64,000 nucleotides of DNA. Source: Phycisphaerae bacterium. GTDB lineage: Bacteria; Planctomycetota; Phycisphaerae; Sedimentisphaerales; Anaerohalosphaeraceae. Where the stretch lies: positions 24,124 to 88,123 of the forward strand of contig JAGPMT010000004.1 of the NCBI GenBank assembly GCA_018052735.1, read 5' to 3'. A model generated the notes under the pieces. That model worked only from the letters and a program-made list of their open reading frames with translations. It made no database searches and was not told the DNA's origin. Positions 22,828 through 34,978 of this stretch are shown in pieces. A program made the translations under genes and the position numbers. Every line of letters starts with the position of its first letter. Position 1 is the first letter of the stretch.

Positions 22828-23979
22828 CTATGCTCTTGCGGCTTCCAGCAAGGAAGCAGCCGCCTCATCCATAATCCATGTAACTTTGTGCAGAACCGGC
22901 CACAAACCGTGTATTGGATAGCGCAAAGGCTGTGCTTCAGAAGTAAAAATGCAGCGAAGAATGTCTGCTTTGCTGCGGCCGGCAGCCAGCACCAAAATAC
23001 GGCGGGCATTTTGAATAACCGGCATTGTCAGTGTAATCCGCCGATAATCATCCCGCTGTACTACCGATGCCAGAGCATTTGTCTCCAATAAATGATAGGC
23101 ATCCGGAAAAACAGATCCAATGTGCCCATCGCTGCCGACACCCAGTACAATCAAATCAAACTGGGGCCACTGGTCAGGGGCAAGATGAAATGCCGAACGG
23201 ATATTCTCTTCATATTCTGCAGCCGCAGCTGTGCTGTCCTGATGTTCACCCCGAATTCGATGAATATTCTCAGATGGGATATCAATCTTCTGCAGAAATG
23301 CTCTGCGGGCTTGTCCGAAATTGCTGGCTGGATTGTCCGGGTCTACACACCGCTCATCCACCCAGAACAAATGAATACGCTTCCAGCACAGTGCAGCATC
23401 AGGAAGTTTATCAAAAAAGCGAAGCGGGGTCTGTCCTCCGGACAAGGCTGCGTAAAAATTTCTGCCCTGCCTTATCGCTTCAGATGCCGCCTTGCAGAAA
23501 AAATCTAATGCCAATTCCGACAGCATTTCCAAATTAGCCGCTTTGATAAGATGCAGTTTAGCCAAGCAGGCCTTGGGGGAACTGAGAAAGGACCGCAGGA
23601 TATCTGCAGCAGCAAGTGCGTCCAGACGCTTTTTCTTTTGCTGGCGCGTCCAATCAAACTCGGTAGCCAGCGACTTGGCTTCAAAACTGCTGAGCCGCTC
23701 ATCCTGAAAATAAATCGGACATGCTGTCTGTTCAGCCAGCCGGCGTGCAAACTGCCGAACAGCAGAGGCACGAGGCCCTTCTGTGCTGTCCATATTAACC
23801 GGCAGCCCTATAACAATTGCTTCAATTTTCTCGTCTTTGAGAACTTTGCTGATTTGCTCAATCAATCGGCTGTCGGCAGAAACGTCAATAACTGAATGCG
23901 GTGTTATTACTGTTTCGGAGGCGTCACAGACAGCCAGCCCTGTCCGCTTTTGACCATGGTCAATTGCAAGATACCGCAT
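22828..23979 (-). CDS. RuvX/YqgF-6-phosphogluconolactonase fusion
   Basis: One 383-residue frame contains two complete domains. Residues 1-138 are a RuvX/YqgF RNase H-like nuclease (pre-16S rRNA processing): LAIDHGQKRTGLAV with Asp7, IGLP at 57-60, QDERLSS at 92-98 and RLDALAAADIL with Asp120. Residues 145-375 are a 6-phosphogluconolactonase (pentose phosphate pathway): SGGQTP at 180-185, WVDER at 206-210, NFGQARRAFL and GVGSDGHIGSVFP at 280-292. No stop or frameshift separates them. GGGAGC precedes the ATG. It follows the guanylyltransferase gene by 26 bp in a sugar-phosphate cluster. A function linking the two activities is not apparent. Confidence 0.9.
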   Translation of the reverse strand: MRYLAIDHGQKRTGLAVCDASETVITPHSVIDVSADSRLIEQISKVLKDEKIEAIVIGLPVNMDSTEGPRASAVRQFARRLAEQTACPIYFQDERLSSFEAKSLATEFDWTRQQKKKRLDALAAADILRSFLSSPKACLAKLHLIKAANLEMLSELALDFFCKAASEAIRQGRNFYAALSGGQTPLRFFDKLPDAALCWKRIHLFWVDERCVDPDNPASNFGQARRAFLQKIDIPSENIHRIRGEHQDSTAAAAEYEENIRSAFHLAPDQWPQFDLIVLGVGSDGHIGSVFPDAYHLLETNALASVVQRDDYRRITLTMPVIQNARRILVLAAGRSKADILRCIFTSEAQPLRYPIHGLWPVLHKVTWIMDEAAASLLEAARA

Positions 23980-28885: not shown

Positions 28886-28914
28886 TTGACACCCGTATGT
28901 TATCCTGCTAAAAT
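28886..28914 (+). promoter_or_regulatory. trp operon promoter
   Basis: TTGACA (28886-28891) is a perfect -35 box. It is separated by exactly 17 bp from TAAAAT (28909-28914, 5/6 match). AT-rich sequence with A and T tracts lies just upstream (28820-28880) and could act as an UP element. The predicted transcription start is near 28921, on or next to the A of the leader-peptide ATG. I see no clear TrpR-like operator palindrome. Confidence 0.8.
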
Positions 28915-28920
28915 GCTTCT

Positions 28921-28977
28921 ATGCATAGAAACGTTTATCCATGCTGTGGTTTTTGCTGGCGTTGGCCTGTCGTATAA
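28921..28977 (+). CDS. trpL: trp leader peptide (18 residues, two Trp)
   Basis: The ORF reads MHRNVYPCCGFCWRWPVV and ends in TAA. Trp codons 13 (28957-28959) and 15 (28963-28965) stand immediately before and at the first base of attenuator segment 1. The stop codon lies in the loop between segments 1 and 2, the geometry of classical trp leaders. No Shine-Dalgarno is present and the start coincides with the predicted transcription start, so translation may be leaderless. An overlapping frame from ATG 28941 has one early Trp codon but runs through the terminator, so it fits less well. Confidence 0.7.
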   Translation: MHRNVYPCCGFCWRWPVV

Positions 28978-29063
28978 ATCGGCAGGCGCAGAAGATTTTT
29001 TGTATCTCTTATCGGTATTTATCAGCGACCTGCGGATTTTGGAGTAATCCCGCAGGTTTTTTT
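28965..29063 (+). promoter_or_regulatory. trp transcription attenuator
   Basis: Segments 1 (GCCTGTCG, 28965-28972) and 2 (CGGCAGGC, 28980-28987) form an 8-bp pause hairpin. Segment 2 can instead pair as GCAGGCGC (28982-28989) with GCGACCTGC (29025-29033, one bulged A), an antiterminator that destroys the downstream terminator stem. When Trp is scarce a ribosome stalled at codons 13-15 would cover segment 1 and favour the antiterminator; when Trp is abundant the 1:2 and terminator hairpins form. The mechanism is inferred from the E. coli paradigm. Confidence 0.75.
29028..29063 (+). terminator. Attenuator intrinsic terminator
   Basis: ACCTGCGGATT (29028-29038) pairs with AATCCCGCAGGT (29046-29057, one bulged C) around a 7-nt loop. 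A T7 run (29057-29063) follows, 26 bp before trpE. Confidence 0.88.
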
Positions 29064-29089: not shown

Positions 29090-30712
29090 ATGAATGATTA
29101 TAAACGGCGTATCGAGCAAGCCCGGCCGGGACAGATCATCCCGATGGTGAGGGATATTGACATTACCTGTCCAGTCGAGTTTTTTGCCAAGCTGAGCAAT
29201 TATGGGCGCAGCCGGCATTGCTGTCTTCTTGAATCGCGGGACTACCTCACTCAAGGAGATGCCGGCGAATTGACTTTTGGAACCGCAAATCCTGCTCTGT
29301 ATCTAACTGGTACGGGCAGGTATTTTATGATTAAAGCCCTCACCGAGACAGGCAGCCGGATGCTTCAATACTTTTCTGCCAGACCGGAACTGTTTTCATT
29401 CTGCCAATCAATCCGCTTTGATTCTAATGTTATCGAAGGGCATCTCGCTGCCAATCAAGGTATTCTGGATGAAGAAATGCGTCTGAAAAGCGTCAACCAA
29501 ATGGATATCATTCGGACTGTTGCGTTTGCTTTTGAATTAGCCAGCAAACCCTTCCGCATCACCTGTGGTCTGATGGGAGCAATCAGTTATGATTTTATTG
29601 ACCAATTTGAAAAACTGCCTACCAACCAGCGGGATATCCTGCATAATCCTGACTATGAGCTGTATTTTGCAGACAATATTTTTCTGATGGATCATAAAAA
29701 CTCAAAGGGCTATGTCATTGTAAATGCGGTAATCACCGACGGTGACCGTGATTTAATTTACCAGCAGGCTCAGCAGTGTTTCGACCAATACTTCGACAAA
29801 ATCAAAGAAGAACGTCCCATCGCCTTGTTTCACGCAGATACAACAACAGCTCCGTCTACCGATACGCAGCAGGAGGAGTACGAAGCAATGGTCAAAACTG
29901 CCCAGAAACATATTCTTGACGGAGATATTTTTCAGGTTGTTTTGAGCCGTACAATCACTGAGCCGTGTCCAGCTGAGCCGCTGGATGTCTACCGGAAGCT
30001 TCGAACTGTCAATCCTTCCCCGTATATGTTTTATCTGAACACCGAGAATACCATTCTGATGGGAGCCAGCCCTGAACTGAACTTGCGGGTCAGCGGGACA
30101 CGGGAACGGATTGTTGAAATCCGTCCTATTGCAGGCACAAAACCCCGGGGCCGTAAAGACGGCAAAATCGATCCTGATACTGATGTACGGTATGAAGCGG
30201 AATTAAAGCTGGACCGCAAAGAGCTGGCCGAACATATTATGCTGGTTGATTTGGCGCGGAATGACATTGCCCGCGTTGCCGAGCCAGGCAGCCGTATCGT
30301 TAATGAAATGCTGATCGTCGAGCGGTATGAATCTGTGATGCATCTTGTCAGCAACGTGCGGGGACGCCTGCGAAACGGCTTGGACGCCTTGAGTGCCTAT
30401 TTGGCCACAATGAATATGGGCACGCTGACCGGTGCGCCCAAAATTGAAGCAATGAAAATCATCCGCATGCTTGAAAAAACCAAACGCGGCTACTACGGCG
30501 GCGCTGTAATGTATCTGACTGTCGACGGCCAATTTGACAGCTGCATCACCATCCGCAGCATGCAGATTCGCAACCATCAGGCCTATGTACGGGCCGGCGC
30601 GGGTATTGTACATGACAGTATTCCCAGAACCGAATTTGAAGAAACAGAACACAAGGCACAGTCATGCCTGAAAGCTATCCGCATGGCCTGTGAAGATGCC
30701 GATAAGGGATGA
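29090..30712 (+). CDS. trpE: Anthranilate synthase component I
   Basis: With TrpG this enzyme makes anthranilate from chorismate and glutamine, the first step of tryptophan synthesis. The 540-residue protein has the N-terminal LLES motif linked to feedback inhibition by tryptophan. The chorismate-binding core includes QVVLSRTI, NPSPYMFYL, GASPELNLRV, EIRPIAGTKPRG, HIMLVDLARND, GTLTGAPKIEAMKII, and RAGAGIVHDS. AGAGG is spaced 6 nt from the ATG. It is the first structural gene after the attenuator. Only 4 bp separate it from trpG. Confidence 0.96.
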   Translation: MNDYKRRIEQARPGQIIPMVRDIDITCPVEFFAKLSNYGRSRHCCLLESRDYLTQGDAGELTFGTANPALYLTGTGRYFMIKALTETGSRMLQYFSARPELFSFCQSIRFDSNVIEGHLAANQGILDEEMRLKSVNQMDIIRTVAFAFELASKPFRITCGLMGAISYDFIDQFEKLPTNQRDILHNPDYELYFADNIFLMDHKNSKGYVIVNAVITDGDRDLIYQQAQQCFDQYFDKIKEERPIALFHADTTTAPSTDTQQEEYEAMVKTAQKHILDGDIFQVVLSRTITEPCPAEPLDVYRKLRTVNPSPYMFYLNTENTILMGASPELNLRVSGTRERIVEIRPIAGTKPRGRKDGKIDPDTDVRYEAELKLDRKELAEHIMLVDLARNDIARVAEPGSRIVNEMLIVERYESVMHLVSNVRGRLRNGLDALSAYLATMNMGTLTGAPKIEAMKIIRMLEKTKRGYYGGAVMYLTVDGQFDSCITIRSMQIRNHQAYVRAGAGIVHDSIPRTEFEETEHKAQSCLKAIRMACEDADKG

Positions 30713-30716
30713 GACA

Positions 30717-31334
30717 ATGAAAACCAATGTTTTGTTTATTGATAATTTTGATTCGTTTACCTATAACCTTGTAGATGAGTTTGCCAAGCGCCAATGTTCT
30801 GCAAAAGTCTATCGTGCTGATGTTCCGCTGGAAGCGCTCGATACAGCATACCAGCAGTTCCATCCGGACTTATTGGTTATTTCCCCCGGTCCCGGCAATC
30901 CCGACACAGCCGGCGTGACGCTGAAGGCAATTGATTTTTTTAAGGACAAACTGCCGATTTTCGGCGTTTGTCTCGGCCATCAGGCAATCATTCAGTACTT
31001 CGGGGGTGTTATTGAGCATGCTCCCGAAGTGATGCACGGCAAGCCGTCCCGAATTACCCACACCGGAAAAGGCATTTTCGAGGGGCTTGAGAATCCCCTC
31101 CAGGCAGGCCGGTATCACAGTTTATGCGCTTTTGCCCTGCCTGAATGTCTGGAAAAGACCGCTGAATACGGCAGCATTATCATGGGCATTGAGCACAAAG
31201 AGCTTCCAATCTATGGTGTGCAGTTCCATCCAGAAAGCGTTTTAACGCCTACAGGCGGAAAAATCATTGAAAATATGCTCAACATTGCCCATAATCTCAA
31301 AACCAATCGGCAGACCAGCCAAAGGAGGTCTTAA
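30717..31334 (+). CDS. trpG: Anthranilate synthase component II (glutamine amidotransferase)
   Basis: The 205-residue class I glutamine amidotransferase supplies ammonia to TrpE. It has FIDNFDSFTYN at the N-terminus, SPGPGNP, the nucleophile Cys in GVCLGHQAI, and VQFHPESVLTP with the catalytic His and Glu. I chose ATG 30717, preceded by GGGATGAG, over GTG 30690, which would overlap trpE. It is not fused to TrpD. Its TAA overlaps the trpD ATG by one base (TAATG). Confidence 0.95.
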   Translation: MKTNVLFIDNFDSFTYNLVDEFAKRQCSAKVYRADVPLEALDTAYQQFHPDLLVISPGPGNPDTAGVTLKAIDFFKDKLPIFGVCLGHQAIIQYFGGVIEHAPEVMHGKPSRITHTGKGIFEGLENPLQAGRYHSLCAFALPECLEKTAEYGSIIMGIEHKELPIYGVQFHPESVLTPTGGKIIENMLNIAHNLKTNRQTSQRRS

Positions 31335-32371
31335 TGGCAAAAATAACAAAATATCTAAATATTATTTTTGAAGGAAAAGACTTAACATTTGAACAGGCAA
31401 AAGAACTGCTGGACACAATCTTTGAAGGGGATGTGGCGGATGTTCAGATTGCGGCCTTTTTGGCGGCGATGCGGATAAAAAAGGCAACCGTTTCAGAAAT
31501 TGCAGGGCTGGCTGTTTCACTCCGCCAACACGCAGTACCTGTTCAGGTCAGCGTCAATCCGTTGGTCGATACCTGCGGCACCGGCGGTTCTTCGGTTAAA
31601 ACATTTAATATCTCTACTACCGCTGCTTTGGTTGCTGCCGGTGCGGGCGTTTACATCGCCAAACACGGCAACCGCGGCATCACCAGCCTGTGCGGCTCGG
31701 CTGATGTTCTGGCAGCTTTGGGAGTGAATATCTCACCCGGGCCGCAGCGCGTTGCTGAATGTATCGAAAAGGCCCATATCGGCTTTATGTTCGCACCCAA
31801 TTTTCATCCGGCAATGAAATTTGTGCAGCCAATCCGGAAAAGTCTGGACTTTCATACGGCCTTTAATATCCTTGGACCGCTGGCGAATCCCGCCAAGGCC
31901 CAAGCCCAAGTGCTGGGTATTTCAGATGAGTCCCTGATGACGCGTATGATTGAAGTTCTTAAAATTTTAGGATTAGAAAGGGCTATGGTTGTTCACAGCG
32001 GCGGCTTGGATGAAATCAGCACAATGGGACCCACTAAAATAATGCATCTGGAAAACGGGCAAATCCGTTCCAGTACGATTGACCCGACTGAATACGGTTT
32101 CCGACTGGCAAATTTGGATGACCTTGCCGGAGGGGATGCTGCTGTCAATGCTCGAATTGTTCGCGACCTGCTGACCTGCCGTGAAACGGGACCTAAAAAA
32201 GATATTGTGCTGCTGAATGCCGCTGCTGCCATTTGGGCTGCGGGTCTTGCAAAAGATCTTGTGGAAGGCATTGAAATGGCTGACTCTTCCATTTCATCCG
32301 GCAATGCCTTACAATGTCTTGAAAAACTAATTGAAATCAGCAACCAGCCGATGGAGCAGCAACAGCAATGA
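31334..32371 (+). CDS. trpD: Anthranilate phosphoribosyltransferase
   Basis: The 345-residue enzyme joins anthranilate to phosphoribosyl pyrophosphate. It has the DTCGTGGSSVKTFNIST motif for PRPP and magnesium binding, KHGNRGITSLCGSADVLAALG, HPAMKFVQPIRKSL, FNILGPLANPA, and the HSGGLDEIS segment. AGGAGG precedes the ATG. It is translationally coupled to trpG upstream, and its end overlaps trpF by 4 bp (ATGA). Confidence 0.96.
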   Translation: MAKITKYLNIIFEGKDLTFEQAKELLDTIFEGDVADVQIAAFLAAMRIKKATVSEIAGLAVSLRQHAVPVQVSVNPLVDTCGTGGSSVKTFNISTTAALVAAGAGVYIAKHGNRGITSLCGSADVLAALGVNISPGPQRVAECIEKAHIGFMFAPNFHPAMKFVQPIRKSLDFHTAFNILGPLANPAKAQAQVLGISDESLMTRMIEVLKILGLERAMVVHSGGLDEISTMGPTKIMHLENGQIRSSTIDPTEYGFRLANLDDLAGGDAAVNARIVRDLLTCRETGPKKDIVLLNAAAAIWAAGLAKDLVEGIEMADSSISSGNALQCLEKLIEISNQPMEQQQQ

Positions 32372-33006
32372 TCAGCATAAAAGTTAAGATCTGCGGCATT
32401 ACCAATCTGGATGATGCCGTAGCAGCTATGGAAATGGGAGCAGATATTCTCGGATTCAATTTTTACCCACGAAGCCCCCGCTATATTGAGCCTCGGCGAG
32501 CAGAAGCCATCATTCGCAAGCTGCCGGCTTTTGTAGACACAGCCGGTGTATTCGTAAATGTCCCGGCACGTGACATTCGGCATCTGACAAATTCGGGTTT
32601 ATTCAATTGGATTCAGTTCCATGGCGACGAAACACCGGAGTTTTGCCGCCAGTTTAACAGCTGGAATATCCAAACAATTAAGGCCGTCCGAGTACGGACT
32701 GTCGACGATATACAAAGTTCCTTGTCTTATCCGACCTATGCCCTGCTGTTTGATGCCTTTGATCAGGCACACTATGGCGGAACAGGCAAAACTTTTGACT
32801 GGTCCTTAATCCGGGATTGTCCACGAAGGGTTTTTTTGGCCGGCGGCATTCATCCCGATAATGTCGTCAAGGCCTTAAAAATGGACGTGTACGGCATTGA
32901 TGTATGCAGCAGCATTGAGAAAGAACCGGGCAAAAAAGATATTGAAAAAATGAAACAGCTTTTTGCGGCGATTTACAACTATACGGGACAAAAGGTGCGA
33001 TTATGA
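32368..33006 (+). CDS. trpF: Phosphoribosylanthranilate isomerase
   Basis: The 212-residue TIM-barrel enzyme performs the Amadori rearrangement before the indole-glycerol phosphate step. [12 protein letters not shown] carries the catalytic Cys, followed by [35 protein letters not shown] and a phosphate-binding [11 protein letters not shown] segment. It overlaps trpD and trpB by 4 bp each. No trpC (indole-glycerol phosphate synthase) is fused or adjacent, so that step must be encoded elsewhere. Confidence 0.95.
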
Positions 33007-34178
33007 TACAACGCGGACGCTACGGCCGTTTCGGCGGCTTTTATGTACCCCAAGTGCTGATTCCAGCATTGGAAGATATCGAAGCAGGTTTTTTGCAATT
33101 TCGCGACAATCCTCAATTTATATCTGAACTGGATGACCTGTACCGGAACTATGCAGGACGGCCAACTCCCCTTTATCATGCAAAACGGTTTAGTGAGTAT
33201 GTCGGCTTTCAGGTTTACATCAAACGAGAAGATTTGCTTCACGGCGGGGCTCACAAGGTAAATAATGCTCTTGGACAGGGACTTTTAGCACGGTATATGG
33301 GCAAAAAGAAACTCATCGCCGAAACCGGAGCCGGTCAGCACGGGCTGGCTACAGCTATGATCGGCGCCTTGTTCGGCATGGAAACCAAAATCTTTATGGG
33401 CTCGGTCGATGTAGCCCGCCAAAATGTCAATGTTCACAAGATGAAACTATGCGGTGCCGAAGTCATCTCTGTTTCAGGAGGCACTTGCACGCTGAAGGAT
33501 GCCATTAACGATGCTCTGCGATACTGGACATCTCATGTAGAAGATACATTTTACCTTTTCGGCACAGCAGGCGGGCCACACCCGTTTCCGATGATTGTAC
33601 GCCACTTTCAGTCGCCTATTGGTGCAGAAGCCCGCAAACAATGCCTCGACCAACTAGGTAAACTTCCGGATATGGTTGTCGCCTGTGTTGGGGGCGGCTC
33701 GAATGCGATCGGTATCTTTTCCGGCTTTTTAAATGACGCCTCTGTCAAACTGGTGGGGGTTGAAGGCGGCGGCAAGGGACTGCATACCCATCAACACTGC
33801 GCTACGCTGACGGCCGGAAGCATCGGCATACTGCATGGGGCACAAACCTATGTACTGCAGGATGAAAATGGTCAGATTCTTGAAACCGAATCCATCTCTG
33901 CCGGCCTTGACTATCCCGGAGTCGGGCCGGAACATTCGTATCTCAAAGAAACCGGCAGAGCTTTATATACGGCGGTTACCGATGTGGAAGTTTTGGATGT
34001 TTTCGAGATGTTTACCCGATTTGAGGGCATCATCCCGGCCCTTGAAAGCTCCCATGCCTTGGCTTATTTAATCAATCAGAAAGGTAAACTGCCAAAGGAT
34101 ACAGCCGTGCTGGTCAATCTTTCCGGCCGCGGCGACAAAGACATCTCAATTGTTGAACAGCACCGACCGATGATATGA
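33003..34178 (+). CDS. trpB: Tryptophan synthase beta chain
   Basis: The 391-residue PLP enzyme condenses indole with serine. It begins with [29 protein letters not shown] contains the PLP lysine, ETGAGQHG contains the catalytic Glu, and [10 protein letters not shown] is the phosphate-binding loop. It has the usual features of the TrpA-dependent TrpB1 type (length near 390-400, [15 protein letters not shown]). Its ATG overlaps the trpF stop. Confidence 0.97.
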
Positions 34179-34186
34179 GGACTTCT

Positions 34187-34978
34187 ATGGGTATTTATCA
34201 AAAACTTTTCAGCACACTCAACCGTCCTGCGTTGATACCCTTTTTTGTGATTGGAGACCCCGAGGAGCAGCTTTCTCTCGAACTGGTTAAAACCGCTATT
34301 GACGCCGGAGCCGATGTTCTGGAGCTGGGTATCCCTTTTTCCGATCCTGTAGCCGACGGTCCAACCATCCAGAAGGCCGACATCCGAGCAATGCAGGCGG
34401 GTATGACGCCGGCAAAGGCACTTAACTTCATCAAAAAGGTTACGGACTATAAACCTTTGCCGGTAGGTTTGCTGGTGTATTACAACCTGATTTTCCAATA
34501 TGGCATTGAGGCATTTTTTGCTGATTTCAAGGCCGCCGGCGGAACCAGCGTTCTGGTGGCAGATTTAAGCATTGACGATGCCGATGAAATAGTTCCAGCC
34601 GCAACAGCAGCCGGCTTGGAAACAGTTTTTATGGCCACACCCAATACCACAGATAAACGCATCCGCAAAATCAGCGAGAAAACAACCGGTTTTATCTACG
34701 CCGTTTCCCTGATGGGAACCACAGGTGAAAGAAGTGTTCTTTCGGAAAAGATTAAACCCCTCACAGAGCGGCTTAAATCCCTCAGCGATAAACCCGTTTG
34801 CGTAGGTTTTGGCATCAGCAGCCCGCAACATGCCCGTCAGGTTGCCGCCGCCGGCGCGGATGGTGTGATTATCGGCAGCCGAATCATCAACATTATCGAA
34901 GAAAACCTAAAGAATCCGGCCGCAATGAAATCCCAAATAAAATCCTTCATCGAAGCTATAAAAAATGCTCTCAGCTGA
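34187..34978 (+). CDS. trpA: Tryptophan synthase alpha chain
   Basis: The 263-residue TIM-barrel subunit cleaves indole-glycerol phosphate to indole for TrpB. ELGIPFSDPVADGPTIQ carries the catalytic Glu and VADLSIDDADE the catalytic Asp. The flexible loop and C-terminal phosphate site GFGISSPQHARQ and ADGVIIGSRI follow. I prefer ATG 34187 because GAGGA is well placed upstream. ATG 34175 would overlap the trpB stop by 4 bp and add four residues. It is the last gene of the operon; no clear intrinsic terminator follows. Confidence 0.95.
   Translation: MGIYQKLFSTLNRPALIPFFVIGDPEEQLSLELVKTAIDAGADVLELGIPFSDPVADGPTIQKADIRAMQAGMTPAKALNFIKKVTDYKPLPVGLLVYYNLIFQYGIEAFFADFKAAGGTSVLVADLSIDDADEIVPAATAAGLETVFMATPNTTDKRIRKISEKTTGFIYAVSLMGTTGERSVLSEKIKPLTERLKSLSDKPVCVGFGISSPQHARQVAAAGADGVIIGSRIINIIEENLKNPAAMKSQIKSFIEAIKNALS

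Follow-up and report, generated by a model that had tools for sequence, protein, structure and literature searches.

The region at 28914-29063 of the window (the whole 64,000-nucleotide stretch of DNA analysed here) is predicted to subject the trpEGDFBA operon to dual control, in which transcription attenuation is combined with repression by TrpR, a reading to which we give a probability of roughly 0.88. Ribosome-mediated trp attenuation is by far the best fit to the sequence data and is, on comparative grounds, close to certain. On each feature examined, namely an ORF with Trp codons, mutually exclusive helices and a terminator before trpE, the element is a member of the trp attenuator class. 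The features are as follows (positions are those of the window unless a contig is given; strand in brackets):

28886-29063: trp control region, the observed element, between a divergent UvrD-type helicase gene and trpE
28886-28914 (+): sigma-70-type promoter, TTGACA, 17-bp spacer, TAAAAT (direct reading; promoters of relatives)
28914-28933 (no strand assigned): 20-bp palindrome TGCTTCTATGCATAGAAACG, predicted TrpR operator, 12 of 14 consensus positions of TGTTTCTN6AGAAACA
28921-28977 (+): trpL, leader peptide MHRNVYPCCGFCWRWPVV followed by a stop, probably leaderless, Trp codons at 28957 and 28963
28964-28972 (+): segment 1, GGCCTGTCG (folding, covariation)
28980-28989 (+): segment 2, CGGCAGGCGC, partner of segment 1 or 3 (folding, covariation)
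28987-29015 (+): region pairing with the 5' end in relatives (helix 0:2b, which hides the AUG), weak in the window at -7.4 kcal/mol
29026-29038 (+): segment 3, CGACCTGCGGATT (folding, covariation)
29046-29056 (+): segment 4, AATCCCGCAGG (folding, covariation)
29057-29063 (+): T7 tract of the intrinsic terminator (direct reading, folding)
29090-30712 (+): trpE, anthranilate synthase component I, enteric-type
30690-31334 (+): trpG
31334-32371 (+): trpD
32368-33006 (+): trpF
33003-34178 (+): trpB
34175-34978 (+): trpA
G000:C49:92082-92864: trpC (IGPS), apart from the operon, on a contig that also holds a second chorismate-binding enzyme gene
G000:C15:19636-19872 (outside the window): trpR homologue, PF01371 67.7 bits against a cut-off of 27

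Elsewhere in the window, a single ORF at 22828-23979 (-) encodes both a RuvX Holliday-junction resolvase domain (PF03652) and a 6-phosphogluconolactonase domain (PF01182); it may represent a genuine fusion, or else two genes that have been read together.

Direct reading bore out the parts listed in the original prediction. The TTGACA (28886-28891) and TAAAAT (28909-28914) boxes form the consensus promoter that it had described, and its 18-codon ORF runs from the ATG at 28921 to a TAA at 28975-28977, with TGG at both expected positions. This stop codon falls between the end of segment 1 (28972) and the beginning of segment 2 (28980), as had been claimed, and the T7 tract indeed stands just before the trpE start.

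The same prediction held that the 1:2, 2:3 and 3:4 pairings are mutually exclusive, and proposed folding the RNA with and without a ribosome. Doing so gave the expected switch: in the absence of a ribosome the window RNA forms 1:2 and 3:4, a ribosome on the Trp codons (RNA free from 28973, segment 4 not yet made) yields 2:3 at -19.6 kcal/mol, and a ribosome at the stop codon leaves the terminator 3:4 as the sole helix. The fold of the window is only mildly better than that of shuffled sequences (z -1.8; 8 of 200 shuffles as good), and its folding energy by itself is weak evidence for an attenuator. Such a slim margin is what might be expected if a short ORF with two Trp codons had come by chance to lie next to an ordinary terminator, and the Trp motif of the window leader, the weakest among its relatives, points the same way (other leaders usually have Trp-Trp-Trp or Trp-Trp-Arg-Trp, of which its Trp-Arg-Trp is a reduced version). 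Chance is nevertheless refuted by the conservation and covariation seen across the order, and we regard its probability as practically negligible.

Conservation and covariation in relatives provide what we consider the decisive comparative evidence for the attenuator. The trpE gene is present in 56 of 59 related genomes, and nearly all available trpE upstream regions contain an ORF that starts with ATG, is 16-26 codons long and has adjacent Trp codons; in the relatives with an upstream region available, this ORF is followed by GCCTGTCG, its complement, a second GCCTGTCG and a terminator. Another set of 80 named records, which overlaps in part with the first and is mostly titled Sedimentisphaerales, Anaerohalosphaeraceae or Phycisphaerae, showed the same layout. 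A covariance model built from 33 leaders matches 133 of 161 Sedimentisphaerales genomes, including 63 of the 66 of good quality, and 74 of 84 genera. This genome has one strong match (E 4e-14), the next being at 0.5, and all matches outside the order but within the same class had E values of at least 0.018 and were taken as noise. The Trp codons and alternative pairings, whose loss in relatives had been named as an outcome that would speak against the element, are both retained: every one of the 113 leaders has at least one Trp codon and 111 have at least two (counts across species are not independent events), and the pairings are kept with compensatory changes. Trp-Trp-Trp and Trp-Trp-Arg are the commonest leader motifs across the order. 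Two leaders (L025 and L029) possess an in-frame insert (CPLRDALGQ-like) ahead of their Trp codons, which can pair with the region after segment 2.

When every pair of columns in the 33-leader alignment was scanned blind, with no assumed structure, 3:4, 1:2 and 2:3 came out as the top conserved helices; one further top-ranked helix is a reflection of the sequence likeness between segments 1 and 3. In all three helices 84% of cells are paired, and changes on both sides were found at 6 of 8 pairs in 1:2, at 6 of 8 in 3:4 (46 double-change cells, compared with 11 expected by shuffling) and at 5 of 8 in 2:3. Pairing of 2:3 is far above that of slid versions of the helix, and its covariation exceeds that of column shuffles only marginally, owing to the sequence that segments 1 and 3 have in common.

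Only 6 nt separate the -10 box from the ATG in the window, and there is therefore no room for a Shine-Dalgarno sequence. A promoter with the same ATG spacing was found in 105 of 106 relatives (score of at least 9.5 out of 13.5, which 23% of shuffled sequences reach), the gap between the -10 box and the ATG in these 105 promoters being 3-13 nt and mostly 6-10 nt. Shine-Dalgarno-like pairing is detected for 3% of leaders, compared with 46% of trpE starts. Given the absence of a Shine-Dalgarno sequence from the leader and the position of its AUG at the site where transcription should start, trpL is probably leaderless. A precedent exists in Sinorhizobium meliloti, in which the leader ORF's ATG is the very start of the trpL transcript (PMC7298713). 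Resemblance to that arrangement, with its leaderless trpL and strong terminator, also lends some appeal to the view that the terminator is constitutive and follows a trpL-derived small RNA, so that termination would not be controlled by tryptophan and the leader RNA or peptide would act in trans, along the lines of the proposal made for Sinorhizobium rnTrpL/peTrpL (PMC7298713). We judge this very improbable: it leaves unexplained why the Trp codons are kept exactly ahead of segment 1 and why the competing 2:3 helix is conserved, and a role in trans could in any case coexist with attenuation.

Across the order, the leader's first codons show complementarity to the stretch that immediately follows segment 2. 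In the 33-leader alignment, true partners of this 5' helix pair at -10.9 kcal/mol compared with -7.6 kcal/mol for partners swapped from other species (z -7), and two control pairings in the same alignment displayed no such cognate-over-swapped effect. In 80 genomes outside the alignment the corresponding values are -13.8 and -10.6 (z -10.9). The 5' helix thus appears to covary; it would hide the AUG of the finished leader RNA and favour termination when no ribosome has been loaded.

The second layer of control is suggested by the palindrome, which overlaps the predicted transcription start and the trpL start codon. In the family to which the window belongs, the start codon lies at the centre of a palindrome, TGTTTCTATGNNTAGAAACA, of which the first bases of the leader make up one half. 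In congeners, a pattern search located this palindrome at the start of a different gene, which encodes a Trp repressor homologue; a few recurrent sites besides trpL and trpR were also retrieved when operator targets were searched by pattern. The trpR homologue of this genome adjoins a second trpB-like gene. At L226 and L196 (G000:C15, outside the window), the homologue starts with MSRN within its own copy of the operator and adjoins a trpB2-type gene. The nearest solved structures of the TrpR homologue are those of E. coli TrpR. With TIGR01321, the NCBIfam TrpR equivalog, the protein of a congener scores 60.7 bits, below the cut-off of 67.25 and still the best family (yecD_yerC, 27.3), and by this rule the homologue is TrpR-related rather than a certified TrpR. 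The E. coli TrpR residues T44, R54, R69, T83, R84 and G85, which contact tryptophan or DNA, are kept in 29 of 29 homologues, L41 and S88 are changed in all 29, and positions 79-81 of the DNA-reading helix differ from those of E. coli. T44, R54, R84, G85, L41 and S88 are what we take to be tryptophan-contact positions in the E. coli TrpR structures.

A trpR homologue is present in 30 of 161 genomes. Among genomes with an attenuated trp operon, the palindrome is found at trpL with a score of at least 11 out of 14 in 21 of 22 that encode TrpR versus 4 of 91 that do not (Fisher 8e-18, a value that overstates the evidence, as the match of site and regulator spans only a few independent lineages). 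The genomes are MAGs, which makes calls of TrpR absence uncertain, and the four exceptions with a good operator include three close kin of TrpR-encoding genomes, with incomplete assemblies or a possibly lost contig. The location of the palindrome varies as well: in another family it is non-coding and sits on the -35 box, several trpR genes have it upstream at various positions, including -27 to -37, and in four more TrpR-encoding genomes it lies upstream of an unrelated, attenuator-less trpE. At L043-L046, in genomes belonging to two other families within the order, the TrpR palindrome likewise stands upstream of an unrelated trpE that has no attenuator.

Because the palindrome follows the regulator and changes place, it is best regarded as a DNA operator and not as an RNA or peptide feature. 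An RNA hairpin was considered and rejected, as the left half precedes the point at which the transcript is predicted to begin and the palindrome is at the -35 box in other families. Operators of the TrpR family are 20-bp palindromes (TGTAcTnGTnnACnAgTACA; PMC9413887), and the window palindrome matches them in its 20-bp length and its TGT...ACA ends. Given its recurrence at trpR and its tracking of TrpR-encoding genomes at trpL, it is likely to be a TrpR operator through which TrpR represses the operon, in a dual control resembling that of E. coli. Attenuation could be real and the palindrome unrelated to TrpR, being either the site of another regulator or a by-product of the peptide MxRN; the palindrome does differ from the E. 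coli TrpR motif, its copy in the window matches only 12 of 14 positions, and the DNA-contact residues at positions 79-81 are unlike those of E. coli. This is unlikely in our view, since it is at odds with the co-occurrence with trpR, with the non-coding copy at the -35 box in another family, with the copies upstream of several trpR genes (-27 to -37) and those close to trpE genes that lack an attenuator, and with the length and ends shared with TrpR-family operators (PMC9413887). The designation of the element as E. coli-style thus finds support on both sides of a TrpR-attenuator pair: the Trp codons and exclusive helices are kept order-wide, and the genome possesses, in addition, a gene for a TrpR homologue and a palindrome to match it at this promoter.

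Leaders from TrpR-encoding genomes tend to be poorer in Trp codons, with as few as one (Trp-Arg-Arg), as seen in L010, L011, L014 and L001. Within the family, the mean number per leader is 2.26 with TrpR versus 3.0 without (p 0.013, kinship ignored), and TrpR lineages may be relaxing the attenuator.

In the mechanism that we propose for attenuation combined with TrpR repression, RNA polymerase would start at or within a few bases of the leader AUG, and a ribosome would load on this 5'-terminal AUG and trail the polymerase. When Trp-tRNA is short, the ribosome would wait at the Trp codons and cover segment 1, allowing 2:3 to form and transcription to proceed into trpE; when it is plentiful, the ribosome would reach the stop codon and cover segment 2, so that 3:4 forms and transcription terminates at T7. 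Without a loaded ribosome, 1:2 and 3:4 would form and transcription would stop too. At high tryptophan, the TrpR homologue would bind the palindrome over the transcription start and block initiation, and the same palindrome at trpR would provide autoregulation. In most of the order, pairing of the 5' end with the bases after segment 2 would additionally hide the AUG of the finished leader RNA. Termination in vivo, tryptophan as the signal and TrpR binding are what we infer from these elements. More tentatively, and at somewhat below even odds, the arrangement may be a compact leaderless form of dual control, in which a single stretch of about 20 bp serves as transcription start, leader start codon and TrpR operator, while across the order its RNA copy is sequestered by a dedicated helix, few ribosomes translate each leader transcript and failed initiation leads to termination by default.

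The cell organisation of planctomycetes has raised questions about the coupling of transcription and translation. An order-wide attenuator that requires a ribosome close behind the polymerase would be evidence that coupling is used there. Some members of the order, this genome included, carry both a ribosome-read switch and a tryptophan repressor homologue, and the natural presence or absence of TrpR among otherwise alike operons offers a ready comparative test of the reason for which bacteria stack two controls. Of 23 other planctomycete trpE upstream regions scanned, only one contains a convincing attenuator. In this region, L051, from outside the order, trpE is preceded (around 1190-1380) by a separate Trp-Trp-Trp leader (MNPNRSNSTVHESDAACRWWWSAPT) and a GC-rich terminator; the existence of a family with a separate leader suggests a broader distribution of the mechanism within the phylum. 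The open-access literature searched yielded no description of either trp attenuation or TrpR regulation for Planctomycetota. The element is well supported and its mechanism is known; the novelty lies in the taxonomic range and in the arrangement (a probably leaderless trpL, a predicted operator that spans the start codon and a helix that would hide it), and classical trp attenuation, alone and with TrpR repression, is extended to an order of Planctomycetota.

As in E. coli trp, the Trp codons precede segment 1, the stop codon falls between segments 1 and 2, the 1:2, 2:3 and 3:4 helices are exclusive, a terminator precedes trpE, and a predicted TrpR operator is found both in the promoter and at trpR; trpR and trpE form the core of the known TrpR regulon (PMC5343134). 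Unlike in E. coli, the window leader lacks a Shine-Dalgarno sequence, the predicted operator covers the leader start codon and is of the form TGTTTCTN6AGAAACA rather than CTAG-type, the gene order is trpEGDFBA with trpC elsewhere, and relatives possess an extra 5' helix. The Rfam Trp_leader model (RF00513) gives no match above its gathering score in the window or in 19 relatives, and recovers the E. coli control at 93 bits; the likeness to E. coli is one of mechanism, and in sequence and structure the RNA is not recognisably the same. Sub-threshold, terminator-like Rfam matches in the window (OmrA-B, PhrS) were rejected as chance. Corynebacterium and Streptomyces likewise have double or triple UGG codons and a terminator and antiterminator before their trp genes (PMC1262725), but these are Actinobacteria, and that paper describes no 5' helix or TrpR operator. 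TrpR regulation together with a predicted attenuator is shared with Chlamydia, of a related superphylum, in which the attenuator is contested and is located between trpR and trpB, and the gene arrangement and leader differ (PMC3937554). With trpLE(G) of S. meliloti the region has in common tandem Trp codons, attenuation and, probably, a leaderless trpL, but that operon is without transcriptional repression (PMC7298713), whereas here a predicted TrpR operator lies at the start.
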